Of a DNA stretch of 64,000 bases, positions 3,685-11,446 are shown in pieces. The notes beneath the pieces were generated by a model, which made no database searches, was not told the origin of the DNA, and saw nothing but the letters and a program-made list of their open reading frames with translations. The DNA comes from Ornithinibacillus bavariensis. Its GTDB lineage: Bacteria > Bacillota > Bacilli > Bacillales > Amphibacillaceae. The stretch spans positions 992,001-1,056,000 of the forward strand of contig NZ_BORP01000001.1 in NCBI RefSeq assembly GCF_018333235.1, written 5' to 3'. The position numbers and the translations under genes are program-made. Position 1 is the first letter of the stretch. Each line of letters begins with the position of its first letter.

Positions 3685-3921
3685 CTATTTTTTTGTAACG
3701 ATTTTACTTTGGTCAAATAACCCTGCTGCAGACAATCCAATCATTAATCCATACATGATTTGCTCCTGCAAAGTACCTCCGACATAAAAAACACCTGCTA
3801 ACAATCCTAAAATCAAGGATGCTACAGGCAAGTATTTTTTGGATACAACAAGTTGTTTAAGTAACTCTGTGAGCGCCAAGACAACTGCAATAATTAACGC
3901 AATTTCAAACATAGCTTTCAC
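3685..3921 (-). CDS. phage holin
   Basis: 78 residues with two strong membrane segments (about 3-20 and 30-50) and a third hydrophobic stretch (about 56-70), then a basic tail QSKIVTKK. Ribosome site AAGGGAGGTGAAAGCT precedes ATG 3921. It sits directly between the BhlA-like gene and the endolysin (gap 11 bases), the classical lysis-cassette position. It would form the membrane lesion that lets the lysin out. Family assignment rests on size, topology and place; the lysin it serves is now broken. Confidence 0.75.
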   Translation of the reverse strand: MKAMFEIALIIAVVLALTELLKQLVVSKKYLPVASLILGLLAGVFYVGGTLQEQIMYGLMIGLSAAGLFDQSKIVTKK

Positions 3922-3931
3922 CTCCCTTCAA

Positions 3932-3968
3932 AGAAAAAAGAGCGTCTACCGAGGTGGCAAACGCTCTT
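3932..3968 (-). terminator. hairpin with T tract at the 3' end of the bhlA-like gene
   Basis: AAGAGCGT / ACGCTCTT, an 8-bp stem with a 15-base loop, followed on the minus strand by TTTTTTC. It overlaps the last codons of the BhlA-like gene and lies 11 bases ahead of the holin start, so it may act as an attenuator that partly separates the two. Confidence 0.6.
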
Positions 3969-4164
3969 CAATATCTTCTAATTTTGTAATGACAATATCG
4001 TATTTTGTACTGAATCCTTTAAGGGTTTCGTTTTGAGCATCTATTGTTTTGTATAACTGTTTCTCACGTTCGTTTGATTCTTTCCTGCCTGAATAAAAAA
4101 GCCAAACGAAAAGGACCGCAAATGGTCCTTGTGTGAGAAAATATTGAATTAATGTTTCATCCAT
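3946..4164 (-). CDS. BhlA/UviB-family holin-like protein
   Basis: 72 residues, start ATG 4164 after TTAGGAGGCAGTC. The N-terminus holds a single membrane segment in the family pattern YFLTQGPFAVLFVWLFY, followed by a charged helix rich in Glu/Lys (ESNEREKQLYKTID) and a second helix ending IEERLPP. This is the layout of BhlA of B. licheniformis and clostridial UviB, small membrane-acting proteins of prophage lysis or bacteriocin release modules. First gene of the lysis group; its 3' end forms a terminator-like hairpin. Confidence 0.85.
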   Translation of the reverse strand: MDETLIQYFLTQGPFAVLFVWLFYSGRKESNEREKQLYKTIDAQNETLKGFSTKYDIVITKLEDIEERLPPR

Positions 4165-4191
4165 GACTGCCTCCTAATTTATGACATAATA

Positions 4192-4216
4192 AAAAGCACC
4201 TCGTGTGAGATGCTTT
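4192..4216 (-). terminator. Rho-independent terminator
   Basis: Minus-strand stem AAAGCATCTC / GAGGTGCTTT (one mismatch or wobble) followed by TTTATT. It sits at the end of the unknown 155-residue phage gene and ahead of the BhlA-like gene. Confidence 0.65.
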
Positions 4217-4682
4217 AACTGTTTTCTAATTCACTTTTTGCTTTAGAGATATCATCCTTTAATGAAGATAAATAATTATCGATCATCACACCAATGTATT
4301 TTATTCCCGTAATTGCATCATTATAAAATCCGTTTTCAACTAGTTTAGCAATTCGATACCCTTTTTCTTCGTGGTCATATAAATTTACTGACACAATGAC
4401 TTCCCTAGTAATGTCATAGGTAATTAGTGAGTTATTATCCTTATCATAACCTAAGATAGGACCTTTTGAAGTCTGGTAATTCAGAGTAGGGTGTGTAAAT
4501 AAAAAATCATTTTCATAAATCTTCTTCATTATAGGTTTGTACAACTTAATTGTTTCCAATAATTTATCCTGTTGTTTCTTTTGTAATTCTTTTAGTTCCT
4601 CTAGTTCTCTATTGTATATTTCTGTTTGTCCTTCGACATGTATTAAGAGCATATCAGGATCATACAATTTAATATTAGACAT
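4215..4682 (-). CDS. phage protein of unknown function
   Basis: 155 residues starting at MSNIKLYD (ATG 4682), six bases after GGGAGGTG; an in-frame ATG at 4703 lies upstream of that site and is not used. No membrane segment. Residues 25-50 are strongly charged and helical (ELEELKELQKKQQDKLLE), the centre contains strand-like ITYDITREVIVSVNLYD, and the C-terminus is a helix rich in Lys/Glu. It lies between tail-side genes and the lysis module, where phages often carry small uncharacterised or chaperone-like genes. No function is claimed. Confidence 0.6.
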   Translation of the reverse strand: MSNIKLYDPDMLLIHVEGQTEIYNRELEELKELQKKQQDKLLETIKLYKPIMKKIYENDFLFTHPTLNYQTSKGPILGYDKDNNSLITYDITREVIVSVNLYDHEEKGYRIAKLVENGFYNDAITGIKYIGVMIDNYLSSLKDDISKAKSELENS

Positions 4683-4688
4683 AATTTC

Positions 4689-4740
4689 CACCTCCCTTCC
4701 CATCTACTTAATTCGACAGAAGAGAGGGGAATCCTTTAAT
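4689..4740. repeat. imperfect direct repeat, left copy
   Basis: About 52 bases that match 7130-7182 at roughly three of four positions by eye, sharing CACC-CCTCC-TTC, TTAATTC-ACA and GGGAATCCTTTAA. Each copy covers the ribosome site and leader of the next minus-strand gene and abuts the stop codon of the gene before it. Confidence 0.65.
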
Positions 4741-5786
4741 TAACCCTTATTCTTGATATTCTTTATAATAAAATAAGGATTACATAAAGGATTAGTTATT
4801 TTCACAAAAAGTTTTGAAGCTAATACATAACAGATAAGCGTTGAAATAAATATACAAATTACAATCTGTGTATTAGGTTTGACTAATGAAAGCAATTCAT
4901 GCTTTTGTATAATGAATACGAACACTGGATGAAACAAAAAGATTGTGAGGGATGCGTCTCCCCAATAGCTTAATGCTGTATTTCCTTTAGATACCCAATT
5001 TAATATAAGTATACATAGAATAGTGGCAATTAAATAGTGCGCTAATACGACTACGGAAAAAGCACCTAGATTTTGTTCATCTAAAAACATTACTCCACCA
5101 AAGCTACCTCTAAAGGCATTTTCTATTCTGTTGGTGTTTTCAATGAATACAAATGCAAAAGTGATAATGGCAATGCTTCCAATAACTTTTAAAGTTTGAT
5201 TTCTAAGTAGATTTGATATTTTATCGAACCATTCCTTATTGATAAAAAATCCAGCAAAGAAGAATGGAGCAAAGGATAACGTTCGTTGGTAACTAAGAGT
5301 ATATGTATCAAATCCTACAAATAAATTATTTTTTACTAAAACCAAAATTTCAGAAGCGTACCATCTGGAAATAAAACTAATTGCCACTATTACAATAAAT
5401 ATTACCCACTTAACACACTTGGTTAATTTTAATTTAAGCAATAAAAATGCAGCTGCATACCATATCCCCAGACTAACTAAATACCATAAATGAAATTGTG
5501 GAGTTCCGTAGTGAAAAGGAATAGTTTCATACGTACCCATCAAATACCTAAAGTAATTAAATATAGTTTGAAATATTAGATACAGTAATATAAGATTGAT
5601 TATTTTACTTACTTTTACTCTTTTAGCCAAATAGCCACTAATAAATATAAACAATGGCATATGGAACGCATAAATAAATACAAATAATTCATAATTACTA
5701 TATTTGCTAAGTTCTATTAAATGTCCAAAAACTACTAAAAAAATCAATAATCCTTTAGCATTACTGATTCGTAAGTCTCTTTCCAT
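4740..5786 (-). CDS. membrane acyltransferase 3 family protein
   Basis: 348 residues, ATG 5786 after GGGGGTGTAAT. It starts with RDLRISNAKGLLIFLVVFGH, matching the family's opening pattern R..... KG..I..VV.GH with the catalytic-type His, and then shows about nine or ten membrane segments, including FHMPLFIFISGYL, the usual second motif. These proteins move acetyl or other acyl groups from the cytoplasm onto cell-surface sugars or lipids. Here it is a prophage accessory gene between the lysis region and a DUF2971 gene, flanked by direct repeats. A role in changing the host surface, for example receptor masking after lysogeny, is inference. The frame is intact in a region where structural genes are broken. 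Confidence 0.85.
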   Translation of the reverse strand: MERDLRISNAKGLLIFLVVFGHLIELSKYSNYELFVFIYAFHMPLFIFISGYLAKRVKVSKIINLILLYLIFQTIFNYFRYLMGTYETIPFHYGTPQFHLWYLVSLGIWYAAAFLLLKLKLTKCVKWVIFIVIVAISFISRWYASEILVLVKNNLFVGFDTYTLSYQRTLSFAPFFFAGFFINKEWFDKISNLLRNQTLKVIGSIAIITFAFVFIENTNRIENAFRGSFGGVMFLDEQNLGAFSVVVLAHYLIATILCILILNWVSKGNTALSYWGDASLTIFLFHPVFVFIIQKHELLSLVKPNTQIVICIFISTLICYVLASKLFVKITNPLCNPYFIIKNIKNKG

Positions 5787-5831
5787 ATTACACCCCCATT
5801 TACAAATACTAGGGTAATATTATGAATTTTA

Positions 5832-5856
5832 CAAGGGTTCCTTTTTAGAACCCTTG
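5832..5856. other. perfect inverted repeat between accessory genes
   Basis: CAAGGGTTC / GAACCCTTG, nine paired bases with a seven-base loop, in the gap 5787-5944. No long T tract follows on either strand, so it is a weak terminator or an RNA-stability hairpin for the DUF2971 transcript. Confidence 0.45.
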
Positions 5857-5913
5857 ATTTCTAACTTGCCCCTAACTTTGAATAAGTGTTCTACATAGCA
5901 TTTAGAAAAAGGA

Positions 5914-5948
5914 CAACAATAAAAGAAGTCCTCTAATGAAGGACTTAA
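5914..5948 (-). terminator. weak terminator after the DUF2971 gene
   Basis: Minus-strand AAGTCCT-tcattag-AGGACTT followed by CTTTTATTG. The stem overlaps the last codons of the DUF2971 gene. Confidence 0.5.
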
Positions 5949-6802
5949 AAAGCTGGAAGTGGTGTAGGGTTCCCGTTGTACCAATGCATTCTAGATACTT
6001 CAATTTTATATTTTTCCTGAAACTCACTAAATACACTGTCATATTCTCGTGGAGTCTCAACACCAAGTATTACAGCTCTCAATGAACTATCAATAGATAC
6101 ATATTCATAGTCTTGACTGGATTGTATGACCCAACGGAATTCATTTTCATCTCTCCAATCCGGAGCCTTTCTTAAATACAAAGTTTTATAATATCGAGTT
6201 ACGTGGTCGTTTAGCAGTTCATCTATTTCCTTACTTATCATATCTTTTTGATTTATATTAAATGCCTCATAATCATCCACATTAATTGGATAATATGAAT
6301 TGTAATCTACTCGACCAAAGTAAATTTGTTTTAGTCTATCTAATTCAGTAATAATTGTATGATGTAATTCTCTTTTATCAAACACCAAACAAACTCCTCG
6401 ATGGTTACTTGCGTACTGAGCCCACATTCTTGAATGCGCAAATCCTCTACCCCCATAATTAATTTGATTATAAGAATTCTTATCTTCATCAGTCATGCAG
6501 AGGATCTTTATATCTTTTTTCAGTTTTCTATTAAATTTTTCAACTATTTCTAGTAAGCTTTCAGTACTAATTTCAATACCATTTGTATGAGTAATGGAGA
6601 CGTTCCAGTCTTTTGACTCCCGAGGATCATTAGTTTGAATGAAAGGACTAAACCTTAACCTTCCCTCAAATAGAATATTCTCAATGGCAACTTCTAAAGA
6701 AGTATAGTGATAAACATAGTCTTCTGAAAGAGTAACTTCCTGATTAAATAATGACAAATTTACACATCCTAACCTTTTATTTTCTTTAGAAAAGTGTACC
6801 AA
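5945..6802 (-). CDS. DUF2971 family protein
   Basis: Up to 285 residues. The open frame begins with TTG 6802, which has no ribosome site; TTG at 6757 (MSLFNQEVTL), eight bases after AGGTTAGGATG, is the better start. Family marks: DYVYHYTS near the N-terminus, LRFSPFIQTNDPRESKDW, AHSRMWAQYASNHRGVCLVFD in the middle and APDWRDENEFRWV toward the end. The conserved His/Tyr-Thr, Asn-Asp-Pro-x-Glu, Met-Trp..Tyr and Glu-x-x-x-Arg positions are all present, so the protein looks functional. The family's biochemical role is not established as far as I know; members are common in phages, islands and near defence genes. Cytosolic, no membrane segment. Confidence 0.8.
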   Translation of the reverse strand: MVHFSKENKRLGCVNLSLFNQEVTLSEDYVYHYTSLEVAIENILFEGRLRFSPFIQTNDPRESKDWNVSITHTNGIEISTESLLEIVEKFNRKLKKDIKILCMTDEDKNSYNQINYGGRGFAHSRMWAQYASNHRGVCLVFDKRELHHTIITELDRLKQIYFGRVDYNSYYPINVDDYEAFNINQKDMISKEIDELLNDHVTRYYKTLYLRKAPDWRDENEFRWVIQSSQDYEYVSIDSSLRAVILGVETPREYDSVFSEFQEKYKIEVSRMHWYNGNPTPLPAF

Positions 6803-6840
6803 ATTATCATTTTTTTGAGTAGCATCATTTAATATAAGAC

Positions 6841-6870
6841 AAAAGTAAAAGCACCCATAAAGAGTGCTTT
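6841..6870 (-). terminator. Rho-independent terminator
   Basis: Minus-strand AAAGCAC-tctttatgg-GTGCTTT followed by TTACTTTT. It overlaps the stop of the decayed small gene at 6869 and precedes the DUF2971 gene. Confidence 0.65.
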
Positions 6871-7126
6871 ATACTTTTTCAAGTTCATATATAACAGATG
6901 TTCTATTAGGTATTAGATACGTTTGACTAGTCCTGTCTAATTGATGAATGTACTTTTCTAACCTGCTTCTCACCCTATACTTAACGTCATTATTATCTGC
7001 AATAATGACCTTCGTCAGTTAATATTATTACATTTCTACTCTCATACAAAAAATTTGGACTTGTCTTGAGGTATACACTTCACCTATGGTAAGTTCTTTT
7101 AGTATCTCATCCTCAAAATATGACAT
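6869..7126 (-). pseudogene. small decayed phage gene, two frameshifts
   Basis: ATG 7126 follows AAGGAGGGGTGACA. It reads MSYFEDEILKELTIGEVYTS and stops after 32 codons, but the other two frames continue the message: SRNVIILTDEG and then VIIADNNDVKYRVRSRLEKY through to LIPNRTSVIYELEKV with a stop at 6869-6871 and a terminator just behind. Two single-base shifts would explain this. The original product would have been about 85 residues; I do not recognise the family. Confidence 0.6.
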
Positions 7127-7129
7127 TGT

Positions 7130-7182
7130 CACCCCTCCTTCTCCTATATTAATTCTACAAAAAGGAAGGGAATCCTTTAAAT
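7130..7182. repeat. imperfect direct repeat, right copy
   Basis: Partner of 4689-4740. It carries the ribosome site of the decayed small gene on one side and abuts the stop of the lipoprotein GDPD gene on the other. The two copies bracket the acyltransferase, DUF2971 gene and decayed gene. Confidence 0.65.
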
Positions 7183-7184
7183 TT

Positions 7185-7997
7185 TTATTGCTTAGAAATG
7201 TCTTGCGACATTACCTCTACAGTGTTATCAAGAAAGTCTGTAAATACTGCATCTACACCATAAGACAATACCTTTGGCATAAACTCTTTTTCGTCTTTAT
7301 TGTCAAACCACACATAAACTTCTAATCCTACTTCATGCATTCTTTCAACAAATTCCTTATCAATCGTTGGAGCGTATGGACCTACTCCGGTAGCATATTC
7401 TTTTACTTCATCTTCTCTTACTTCTTTAGTAAGATTCACATATAGTAACTGCACTAAAGGTATTTCGCTATTTTGTTGATGAATTTTTTTGAGGCTATCC
7501 CTGGAGAATGATTGAATAATAACGTAATCCTTTAATCCTTTTTCTTCGATAAGTCTTAATAGCTCATCTTCCATCACAAGCTCACCATTCATTGGGCGTG
7601 TCTCAATAAAATAATTTGTGTTTTTACCAAAGGTATCAAATATTTCTTCAAGTGTGGGTATCTTTTCGCCCTGATACTCATTGCTAAACCATGAACCTGC
7701 GTCCAGCTGTTCTAATTCTGCTAGAGTAAACTGTGACACTTCTCCCTCCCCATTTGTTGTTCGATCAACCGTTTCATCATGAATCGAAATAAGTTGGCCA
7801 TCTTTTGTCATTCGCAAGTCAATTTCAATAAAATCAGTACCAAGTTCTACTGCTTTATTATAAGCAGTCAATGTATGTTCAGGCGCTAAATTTTTTGCCC
7901 CTCTGTGAGCAATGAGGGTAACTTTTTCTTCCTGTGATTCTGACTGTGAACAGCCCACTAATAATAAGATTAATAGGATAATAATGTACTTTTTCAT
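7185..7997 (-). CDS. glycerophosphodiester phosphodiesterase, lipoprotein
   Basis: 270 residues, ATG 7997 after GTTAGGAG. The N-terminus is a lipoprotein signal: KKYIIILLILLLVGC with Cys at residue 16, so it should be anchored outside the membrane. The GDPD domain is complete: LIAHRGAKNLAPEHT (His-Arg and Glu), FIEIDLRMTKDGQLISIHDE (Glu-Asp metal ligands and second His), then IETRP and VYVWFDN. It should hydrolyse glycerophosphodiesters or poly-glycerophosphate to glycerol-3-phosphate plus alcohol. It follows directly on the broken tail gene that itself carries a GDPD domain (five bases apart), so it may be a phage lysogenic-conversion gene acting on teichoic acid, or a captured host gene. 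No repeat or IS is seen at its 5' side. Confidence 0.88.
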   Translation of the reverse strand: MKKYIIILLILLLVGCSQSESQEEKVTLIAHRGAKNLAPEHTLTAYNKAVELGTDFIEIDLRMTKDGQLISIHDETVDRTTNGEGEVSQFTLAELEQLDAGSWFSNEYQGEKIPTLEEIFDTFGKNTNYFIETRPMNGELVMEDELLRLIEEKGLKDYVIIQSFSRDSLKKIHQQNSEIPLVQLLYVNLTKEVREDEVKEYATGVGPYAPTIDKEFVERMHEVGLEVYVWFDNKDEKEFMPKVLSYGVDAVFTDFLDNTVEVMSQDISKQ

Positions 7998-10578: not shown

Positions 10579-11215
10579 ACTAGAACATCATCATATAGAA
10601 TCATTTTTAAATGAACTCAATCACACCAAGTTGCCAAATAGCGATAAAAACATATCGCAAAGAACTAGAAAAGACATTTATAGAATTCTCTCAAGCGCTT
10701 TAAAGACTGGAAGACGGCATGGTATCAAAGAAGGCATCATGGTGGATATAGAAGCAAAGGATGATAATGGAAAATGGAATTTATCACCTCAACTTAAAAC
10801 CTCAACTAGCTACCGAACTTTAGACATCGATGATGACACCATCGAATTGCTAAAAAACCATAAAAAGCAACAAGAAAAGGGTAAAATGAAATGCAGTCCA
10901 GATTATGAGGAAAACAATCTAGTATGTTGCACTTCAACGTGTGGTGTTATAAGACCAACCTATTTAAGGACTGTATTTAATCGCACGATTGAAAAAAGTG
11001 GTGTAAAATGAATTAGCTTCCATGGTTTACGGCACACTCATGCAACTTTATTATTGAGAGCTGGCATTCATCCAAAAGTTGTTCAAGAAAGATTAGGTCA
11101 TAGATCAATACAAACAACTTTAGATACTTATTCTCATTTAATTCCAGGTATACAAGAAATAGCTGCAACAAGTATTCAAGCTTCACTTTATGGAAAGAAA
11201 GAGAGAAAGAAATAG
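10571..11215 (+). pseudogene. phage tyrosine integrase, truncated, internally deleted, one stop codon
   Basis: The frame reads INKLEHHHIESFLNEL (SAM-like core-binding domain), then ALKTGRRHGI, then a jump to KTSTSYRTLDIDDDTIELL. The segment that would carry the first catalytic Arg is missing. After VEKSGVK-type IEKSGVK there is an in-frame TGA (11009-11011), and the same frame goes on with FHGLRHTHATLLLRAGI, VVQERLGHRSIQTTLDTYSH (box II His-x-x-Arg, His and the nucleophile Tyr) to a TAG at 11213. The N-terminal arm-binding domain is lost at the junction with the tail gene. It points toward the tRNA-Arg, as expected for the enzyme that inserted this prophage. Confidence 0.9.
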
Positions 11216-11313: not shown

Positions 11314-11353
11314 AAAAATAGCAAGGGAAGAAATCACTTTCTAACCCTTGCTA
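11314..11353 (-). terminator. Rho-independent terminator of tRNA-Arg
   Basis: Minus-strand stem TAGCAAGGG / CCCTTGCTA with an inner AGAAA-gtga-TTTCT stem, followed by TTTTTC. It lies 18 bases beyond the tRNA 3' end and could have come with the phage arm. Confidence 0.8.
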
Positions 11354-11370
11354 CATTTGACTTTCAACGA

Positions 11371-11446
11371 CGCGCCCAGAGGGATTCGAACCCCCGGCAA
11401 ACCTGGTACCGGAAACCAGTGCTCTATCCAGCTGAGCTATGGGCGC
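11371..11446 (-). tRNA. tRNA-Arg (anticodon CCG)
   Basis: Cloverleaf by eye: acceptor GCGCCCA / TGGGCGC, D-stem GCTC/GAGC, anticodon stem CTGGT/ACCAG with loop TTCCGGT (anticodon CCG, reads CGG), T arm GGGGG-TTCGAAT-CCCTC (one G-T pair), discriminator G. The 3' CCA is not encoded. The tRNA 3' half is the likely attachment site of the neighbouring prophage. Confidence 0.92.

Follow-up and report, generated by a model that had tools for sequence, protein, structure and literature searches.

A recurring element of about 50 bp that probably heads exchangeable accessory-gene cassettes in temperate phages of Bacillales

A 64,000-nucleotide (nt) stretch of the Ornithinibacillus bavariensis genome (contig NZ_BORP01000001.1, positions 992,001 to 1,056,000; here called the window and numbered from its first letter) begins with 11 kb of prophage remnant, mainly on the minus strand, in which an imperfect direct repeat is found twice. 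The repeat is probably a control element of about 50 bp, timed by sigma-H, behind which temperate phages of Bacillales carry exchangeable cassettes of accessory genes (morons). On the minus strand, a baseplate/tail piece (10578-10024) is followed by a broken tail spike with a GDPD part (9577-8002) and by a GDPD gene (7185-7997), which forms the upstream flank. Copy 2 of the element (7126-7176) leads a broken small gene (6870-7126) with a terminator-like hairpin, AAAGCACTC..GGGTGCTTT, at its 3' end (6848-6870). The gene for a DUF2971 protein of 285 amino acids (aa) (5945-6802; PF11185, 2e-11) has another terminator-like hairpin at its 3' end (5926-5946). It is followed by a 348-aa acyltransferase-3 gene (4740-5786; Acyl_transf_3, PF01757, 2e-25), whose stop codon abuts copy 1 of the element (4682-4735). 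Copy 1 leads a cargo gene (4215-4682) that encodes 155 aa from the ATG spaced to the Shine-Dalgarno (SD) sequence, or 162 aa from an upstream ATG; the 155-aa protein had no match in PHROG, Pfam or PADLOC. An in-frame ATG at 4703 lies inside the copy 1 hairpin, seven codons before the SD-spaced ATG at 4682, and is the likely pick of gene callers as the start of this gene. A stereotyped cassette terminator (GCATCTCACACGAGGTGC and a T run; 4193-4216) follows, and genes for a BhlA holin-like protein (3946-4164) and a holin (3685-3921) form the downstream flank.

The remnant also contains an HNH gene and an M23 lysin frame, apparently broken and with a late start. On the plus strand a broken integrase (10631-11214) adjoins a tRNA-Arg gene. 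A 76-bp copy, 92% identical, of the 3' half of this tRNA gene and its flank (window 11343-11418) was found 4.8 kb to the left of the window (G000:C1, about 987138-987212). Because this partial copy is inverted, the remnant may have been rearranged after integration. An earlier note, made from the letters alone, had described a dead prophage in which the repeat (4689-4740 and 7130-7182), each copy at the junction of a stop codon and a ribosome site, brackets an intact acyltransferase-3 gene, an intact DUF2971 gene and a small decayed gene. Most of this description was borne out. Packaging genes are absent between the tail piece and the integrase, which fits a dead prophage; copy 2 lies between the GDPD stop at 7185 and an ATG at 7126, and copy 1 between the acyltransferase stop at 4740 and an ATG at 4682. 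The acyltransferase and DUF2971 frames are open, with Pfam matches above the curated cut-offs, and the frame from 7126 stops after 32 codons. The bracketing stood in part: genes do lie between the copies, but copy 1 leads the 155-aa gene (4682-4215) just outside the interval. The idea that the spacer is directly followed by the noted cargo did not survive: directly behind each copy stands a small gene of its own, and DUF2971 and the acyltransferase are found deeper in the block. These two may plausibly act in defence or in altering the cell surface, DUF2971 being the sole defence candidate (PADLOC PDC-S31, 4e-14).

The two copies, both on the minus strand, were aligned by blastn at 80% identity across 45 bp. 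Local alignment of 4683-4743 with 7126-7186 scored 45, against a maximum of 33 in 2000 dinucleotide shuffles (0/2000 as good) and 26 for the best of 6362 other 61-base stretches in the window. A hairpin-only model (R1; 24 sequences, no -35 columns) matched copy 1 at 4728-4689 with 48.1 bits and copy 2 at 7169-7130 with 40.6 bits, both copies belonging to its training set. The third-best match in the window reached 14.5 bits, and across the whole genome R1 matches were confined to the two copies. Chance similarity between ribosome-binding sites (RBS) was ruled out as the source of the repeat by the shuffle test and the R1 scores. Taken by itself, the 13-bp core GGGAATCCTTTAA is unremarkable: the window has five matches at two or fewer mismatches, with 2.6 expected. 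A sigma-A promoter was also considered and dropped, since a scan of the repeat region with the sigma-A consensus gave no excess (41 matches against 38.6 ± 6.3 expected).

On the coding strand both copies share the layout AAAGGATTCC-N-GT(C/A)GAATTA-N-SD-ATG. In copy 2 the -35-like AGGA (7176-7173) is followed by the spacer, which is also the left arm of a hairpin, by GTAGAATTA (7158-7150) with GAATTA in the loop, by the SD (about 7140-7132) and by the ATG (7126-7124). The corresponding parts of copy 1 are AGGA (4735-4732), GTCGAATTA (4717-4709), again with GAATTA in the loop, the SD (about 4697-4690) and the ATG (4682-4680). Exactly 14 nt separate AGGA from GTCGAAT or GTAGAAT in both copies. 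The sigma-H consensus is (R)AGGA(WWW) at -35 and GAAT at -10, and spoVG is sigma-H dependent. In all 11 genomes of the genus (11/11), spoVG is preceded by AGGA-N14-GTAGAATT, with boxes and spacing equal to those of the window copies. Both window copies carry the consensus boxes at the right spacing, and these were taken as a sigma-H type promoter; sigH itself is present in the same genome (360 bits).

Further searches extended this pattern. Across 156 genomes of the family, AAGGA-N12-15-TGTCGAATTA occurred 81 times, against 9 for the reversed control (counted from the table). The box motif precedes coiA (PF06054) in a single genome, two T2SSE ATPases, taken as comGA by sight, in single genomes, and a spo0F-like regulator (Response_reg domain; named by sight) with an adjoining aldolase-like gene. 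A pattern of the -10 box and SD only was found in 20 viral contigs, and in 14 of these, several of them related, AGGA stands exactly 13 nt upstream of TGTCGAATTA; the pattern TGTAGAATTA..AAGGGAGG was found in six contigs, with the -35 box in place in just one. At E <= 0.05, R1 had matches in 64 of the 156 family genomes; chance alone would give about 8. The best 52 matches, comprising 8 training sequences and 44 new ones, were inspected. A -35 box was present at the fixed distance in 43 of these 44 new matches (37 AGGA, 6 AGGG or AGGT), although the search had not demanded it. This unfiltered count is the figure used here: when a start codon after the SD was required, 48 of the 52 were retained, four were excluded, G087 among them, and the resulting 40/40 for the -35 box flatters. 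GAAT itself was found in 38 of the 52.

The sequence that separates the two boxes can base-pair with the SD region in both window copies and in many relatives, which places the -10 box in the loop of a hairpin. The stem sequence varies, while structure and loop (GAATTANNTA) are conserved. For a test of the arms, sites were chosen by the boxes alone, which gave at least 143 in viral contigs, 51 of them with an SD and a start codon within 60 nt. Distinct downstream proteins were present at 41 of the 51; 27 of these start 18-32 nt after the -10 box and 14 further off. At the 27 sites the duplex between a site's own arms had a mean of -12.9 kcal/mol, compared with -10.6 ± 0.4 kcal/mol when arms were permuted (0/20,000 as good). 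The pairing figures relied on are those of this set, an earlier one having been partly chosen by folding energy. The arm duplex of host spoVG scored -5.7 (9/11 loci scored). In two alignments, stem pairing in the true register reached 83% and 88%, against at most 66% and 55-68%, respectively, in slid registers. Taken together, box and stem conservation indicate that the repeat is a composite control element of putative promoter, hairpin and RBS, not a bare scar.

Hairpins of related kinds were noted elsewhere. Element-like hairpins precede transposase-like genes (by sight) at L267 2913 and L271 7841; RBS-hiding hairpins before transposase genes are known from insertion sequence (IS) elements. 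In L381 and L391, comparable boxes with a longer hairpin stand before the gene of a 130-aa membrane protein that by sight looks like the product of a host stress gene; the hairpin design may therefore be in use in hosts as well.

A search of 397 genomes from the order with the full model (R2; E <= 0.001) gave matches in 129, spread over 62 of the 135 genera. In a phylum-wide sample, 22 of 398 genomes matched at E <= 1e-4, two of them being the present genome and another of its order; these short-calibration E-values are rough, and the matches outside the order were inspected in part. Carriers include Paucisalibacillus globulus, Lentibacillus populi, Parageobacillus phage NIIg3.2 and an Anoxybacillus plasmid. 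No prior description of the element was found in the open-access literature. Behind it stand 98 different cargo proteins (near copies removed) with a median of 105 aa, among which BLAST linked only a few small groups. Pfam assigned 13 families with one or two members each, including CoiA, Cse60, a proteasome-type protein, DUF2513 and DUF2441; CoiA is the product of a host gene, and the cargo set is therefore not purely phage. PHROG gave 34 families, with no function on any of the 25 listed, and PADLOC gave four weak matches among the 98 (best 2e-4). Two kinds of protein recur by sight. A small family with an IPH-G(W/Y)GAGSG-like start occurs in L032, L185, L333 and L350, as cargo or second gene near holin or proteasome-like genes in different phages. 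Proteasome-like proteins, likewise as phage cargo or second gene, are found in L351 (4078-4707) and L333; the Pfam proteasome family was matched by 1 of the 98 cargo proteins.

Of the 110 proteins encoded downstream of the cargo, 107 were scanned, three doubled L360 rows being left out. Endolysins, holins and terminase subunits were the best-represented families (family tallies only), and because of these neighbours two recurring sites were recognized, one between tail and lysis genes, as in the window, and one just before terminase. A third recurring site lies inside the early region, antisense to it. A keyword tally of 48 neighbours gave 18 lysis, 3 terminase and 27 unassigned, and is too crude for a per-element share. 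Terminator-like hairpins follow the cargo stop in 38 of 48 cases, compared with 5 of 48 after base shuffling (once each) and 32 of 81 neighbour genes. The stereotyped terminator GCA(T/C)C(T/C)C..G(A/G)GGTGC was found at 14 of 48 cargo ends, or 22 of 48 with a looser pattern; it has 18 strand-occurrences in 412 kb of loci, 14 of them at cargo ends. The sole window match to the strict pattern is the end of the copy-1 gene (4213).

The earlier note had further proposed that the block entered, or is exchanged, by recombination at a spacer conserved within one phage family, in the manner of a moron or at a hotspot, and that related prophages should be searched for the spacer with other cargo. Such cases were found. 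In L185 (part of an IMG/VR contig) the GDPD gene is 70% and the BhlA-holin genes are 86% identical to those of the window, and between them lie one element and an unrelated 76-aa gene. Similarity to the window at the DNA level reaches 7149, inside element 2, and resumes at 4218, the copy-1 cassette terminator; element 1 likewise matches the L185 element (86%). L205 and L216, from a different phage group, share 3 kb at 96% identity as far as +45 from AGGA, where the SD ends; past this point they carry unrelated genes of 81 and 202 aa. Similarity breaks off at +41 to +43 in each of four pairs from the window's own family that have different cargo and an upstream match longer than 100 bp: G031_L319/G034_L322 (1.35 kb, 84%), G097_L315/G098_L335, G031_L319/G034_L347 and G034_L322/G034_L347. 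When 3-kb flanks were compared, L202 and L222 shared just the element and an 82-aa gene (374 bp, 96%). The pairs L216/L222 (48 bp at 92%) and L201/L222 (57 bp at 95%) match essentially over the element alone and carry different cargo, and in L208/L222 the element is 96% alike with a 69% stretch further up. Many further pairs match over the element only, ending at about +37 to +67, which reflects conservation and not exchange.

Copies may also accumulate. L393 has five same-strand copies within 2.7 kb, and L401 has seven, most between opposite-strand genes. In L399, near-identical elements stand at 6382 and 6569, a distance of 187 bp, and the first is not immediately followed by a gene on its strand; this pair is possibly a cassette caught in loss or duplication. 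Cargo thus appears to be swapped as cassettes, sometimes with five to seven stacked per locus. The moron and hotspot idea was largely right, given that different cargo stands behind the same spacer between homologous flanks at recurring sites, as in L185 and the window, L205 and L216, and G031_L319 and G034_L322. The restriction to one phage family was not, as the element occurs far outside it. Exchange at the spacer is supported by relatives with different cargo between homologous flanks, but for this block we only infer entry by recombination between its two copies, because the gene after the element in L185 is unrelated to both window genes.

Based on these features, a mechanism can be proposed. 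The layout AGGA-N14/15-GTCGAAT, arranged as before spoVG, would be read as a sigma-H type promoter. Host sigma-H RNA polymerase would start a short transcript just past the -10 box and loop, and cargo would be made in lysogens entering stationary phase, competence or sporulation. In transcripts started further upstream, for example by read-through of the late operon, the promoter spacer is predicted to pair with the SD and silence translation. The left arm is missing from a transcript begun past the -10 box, whose SD would therefore be free, so that protein would come from the element's own promoter only. Cargo would then stay silent while the late genes are transcribed in the lytic cycle and be made when a lysogen leaves growth. 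A terminator-like site often closes the cassette. Finally, recombination in the element, made possible by its conservation, may swap or stack cargo at fixed sites, as the breakpoints in several pairs suggest. In the window, where the prophage is dead, two such putative cassettes stand between tail and lysis genes, with the DUF2971 and acyltransferase genes enclosed by them. That one element of about 50 bp combines a host-timed promoter, a translational insulator and a crossover point, and so forms a portable cassette system of Bacillales phages, is put forward tentatively, with somewhat less than even confidence.

Other explanations share parts of the evidence. The hairpin could be an RNA operator, in which a phage or host RNA-binding protein reads the conserved loop and controls translation, with the promoter resemblance secondary. 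Such a protein would account for stems that vary around a kept structure and loop, for a 3' arm that is the SD, and for the 14 of 52 R1 matches that depart from GAAT. The conserved part of the loop is, however, largely the sigma-H -10 box, the -35 box is kept at a fixed distance outside the hairpin, and host spoVG carries both boxes without a comparable hairpin, which together make an operator unlikely. A sigma factor encoded by the phage, and not host sigma-H, might instead read the promoters; genes for sporulation-type sigma factors with effects on host genes are indeed found in Bacillus phages, according to passages of PMC9429907. Such a factor is a similarly unlikely reader here, given that the boxes and spacing are those found before host spoVG, that the motif also precedes coiA and comGA-like genes, and that the window prophage is a remnant in a genome with its own sigH.

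A folded single-strand recombination site with integron-like arrays would also be expected to keep its structure while its stems vary, to gather several cassettes in one locus and to show breakpoints at the edge of the element. Rows of cassettes and breakpoints alone do not show an integron array. The promoter and SD functions already cover the conserved positions, and about 50 bp of up to 96% identity would be enough for homologous recombination; a dedicated recombinase was neither searched for nor identified. A folded site is accordingly very improbable. It is scarcely credible that the copies are merely a duplicated or convergent RBS region of no further meaning: their similarity is in part that of a purine-rich SD common to many genes, but neither the shuffles nor any other R1 match in the window approached the two copies, and the -35/-10 spacing is conserved in dozens of unrelated loci.

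Several findings nevertheless weigh against a sigma-H-timed, insulated and exchangeable cassette. For spoVS, another sigma-H gene, nothing closer than a loose AGGT..GAAT pair was seen, and this in 5 of the 11 genus genomes. Among the best 52 R1 matches, one of the 44 new ones (G087) lacks a -35 box, and 14 of the 52 have GAAA, GAAG or GAAC where sigma-H wants GAAT. Some matches precede host genes (coiA). Arm pairing of -3.9 at the 14 distant-start sites is not a like-for-like comparison, as the right arm there often excludes the SD, and is no strict control; it was -5.4 at the 92 sites without SD and start. Covariation of the arms over column shuffles was moderate: shuffles equalled the first alignment in 16/500 cases for paired cells; with the second they did so in 0/500 cases for paired cells and in 52/500 for pairs in which both partners had changed. 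A wobble-pair test of whether the hairpin acts as RNA or DNA, and on which strand, was uninformative. Several early-region copies are antisense to the operon, so insulation does not obviously explain their hairpin, which may simply guard against stray transcripts. In distant pairs, conservation of the element is enough to explain a match that ends at the SD; exchange is supported by pairs with long shared flanks only, and relatives are not independent samples. The element is also nearly absent from cultured phage records, with one record in one search and, in another, two records of one Lactococcus phage (E = 0.4), probably by chance. The exact spacer pattern had zero matches in the phage search, and distant blastn of window 4000-7300 against phages gave one clear match (the BhlA end), the rest being short.

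If the proposal is right, hundreds of lysogen genes would be swapped and stacked as promoter-anchored cassettes that are switched on by sigma-H when the host leaves growth. They could be collected genome-wide by the element alone, a short searchable signature that would flag otherwise anonymous phage accessory genes. It would predict that cargo timing follows the lysogen's entry into stationary phase, competence or sporulation, suggest how cargo can sit in late operons without being made during lysis, and explain in concrete terms how cargo is exchanged at fixed sites in phages. What appears to be new is the promoter-hairpin-terminator architecture and its spread.

Parts of this design resemble known systems. 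In the leaders of T4 gene e and the IS10/IS50 transposases, a hairpin hides the RBS in read-through mRNA, and mRNA from the gene's own promoter lacks one arm. These leaders share RBS hiding with the element, with no tie to sigma-H or cassette exchange. The SAS/ESAS of Cluster K mycobacteriophages, as described in passages of PMC3203893, are a repeated start-associated sequence, about half with inverted repeats, whose function is given there as unknown. Like the element, they stand at translation starts of different gene families. In contrast, SAS is a 13-bp sequence, GGGATAGGAGCCC, from phages of another host phylum, and was not seen by eye in the aligned elements A3/A4; its inverted repeat lies upstream of the start-associated sequence, whereas that of the element includes the SD. 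Promoter boxes, which the element has, go unmentioned in those passages (PMC3203893). A conserved 40-bp region before int in Staphylococcus aureus prophages was shown to be read by host sigma-H and, like the element, directly precedes the SD, according to the relevant part of PMC2869324. It differs in sequence, heads one core gene (int) in place of swappable cargo, and has its stem-loop on the side far from the SD, which the element's hairpin includes (PMC2869324).

The closest likeness is to phage morons, which are described in parts of PMC6316719 and PMC2147016 as promoter-gene-terminator insertions. As with morons, single accessory genes lie between conserved phage genes and are absent or different in relatives, as where the L185 flanks enclose one element and the unrelated 76-aa gene. 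Both also have terminator-like sequences of their own (in the window at 6870-6848, 5946-5926 and 4216-4193) and promoter-like ones, here the conserved boxes of a putative promoter. Unlike morons as presented in these sources, one sigma-H-type promoter-hairpin element recurs before 98 cargo proteins in many genera, and exchange breakpoints in close relatives fall at the edge of the element.

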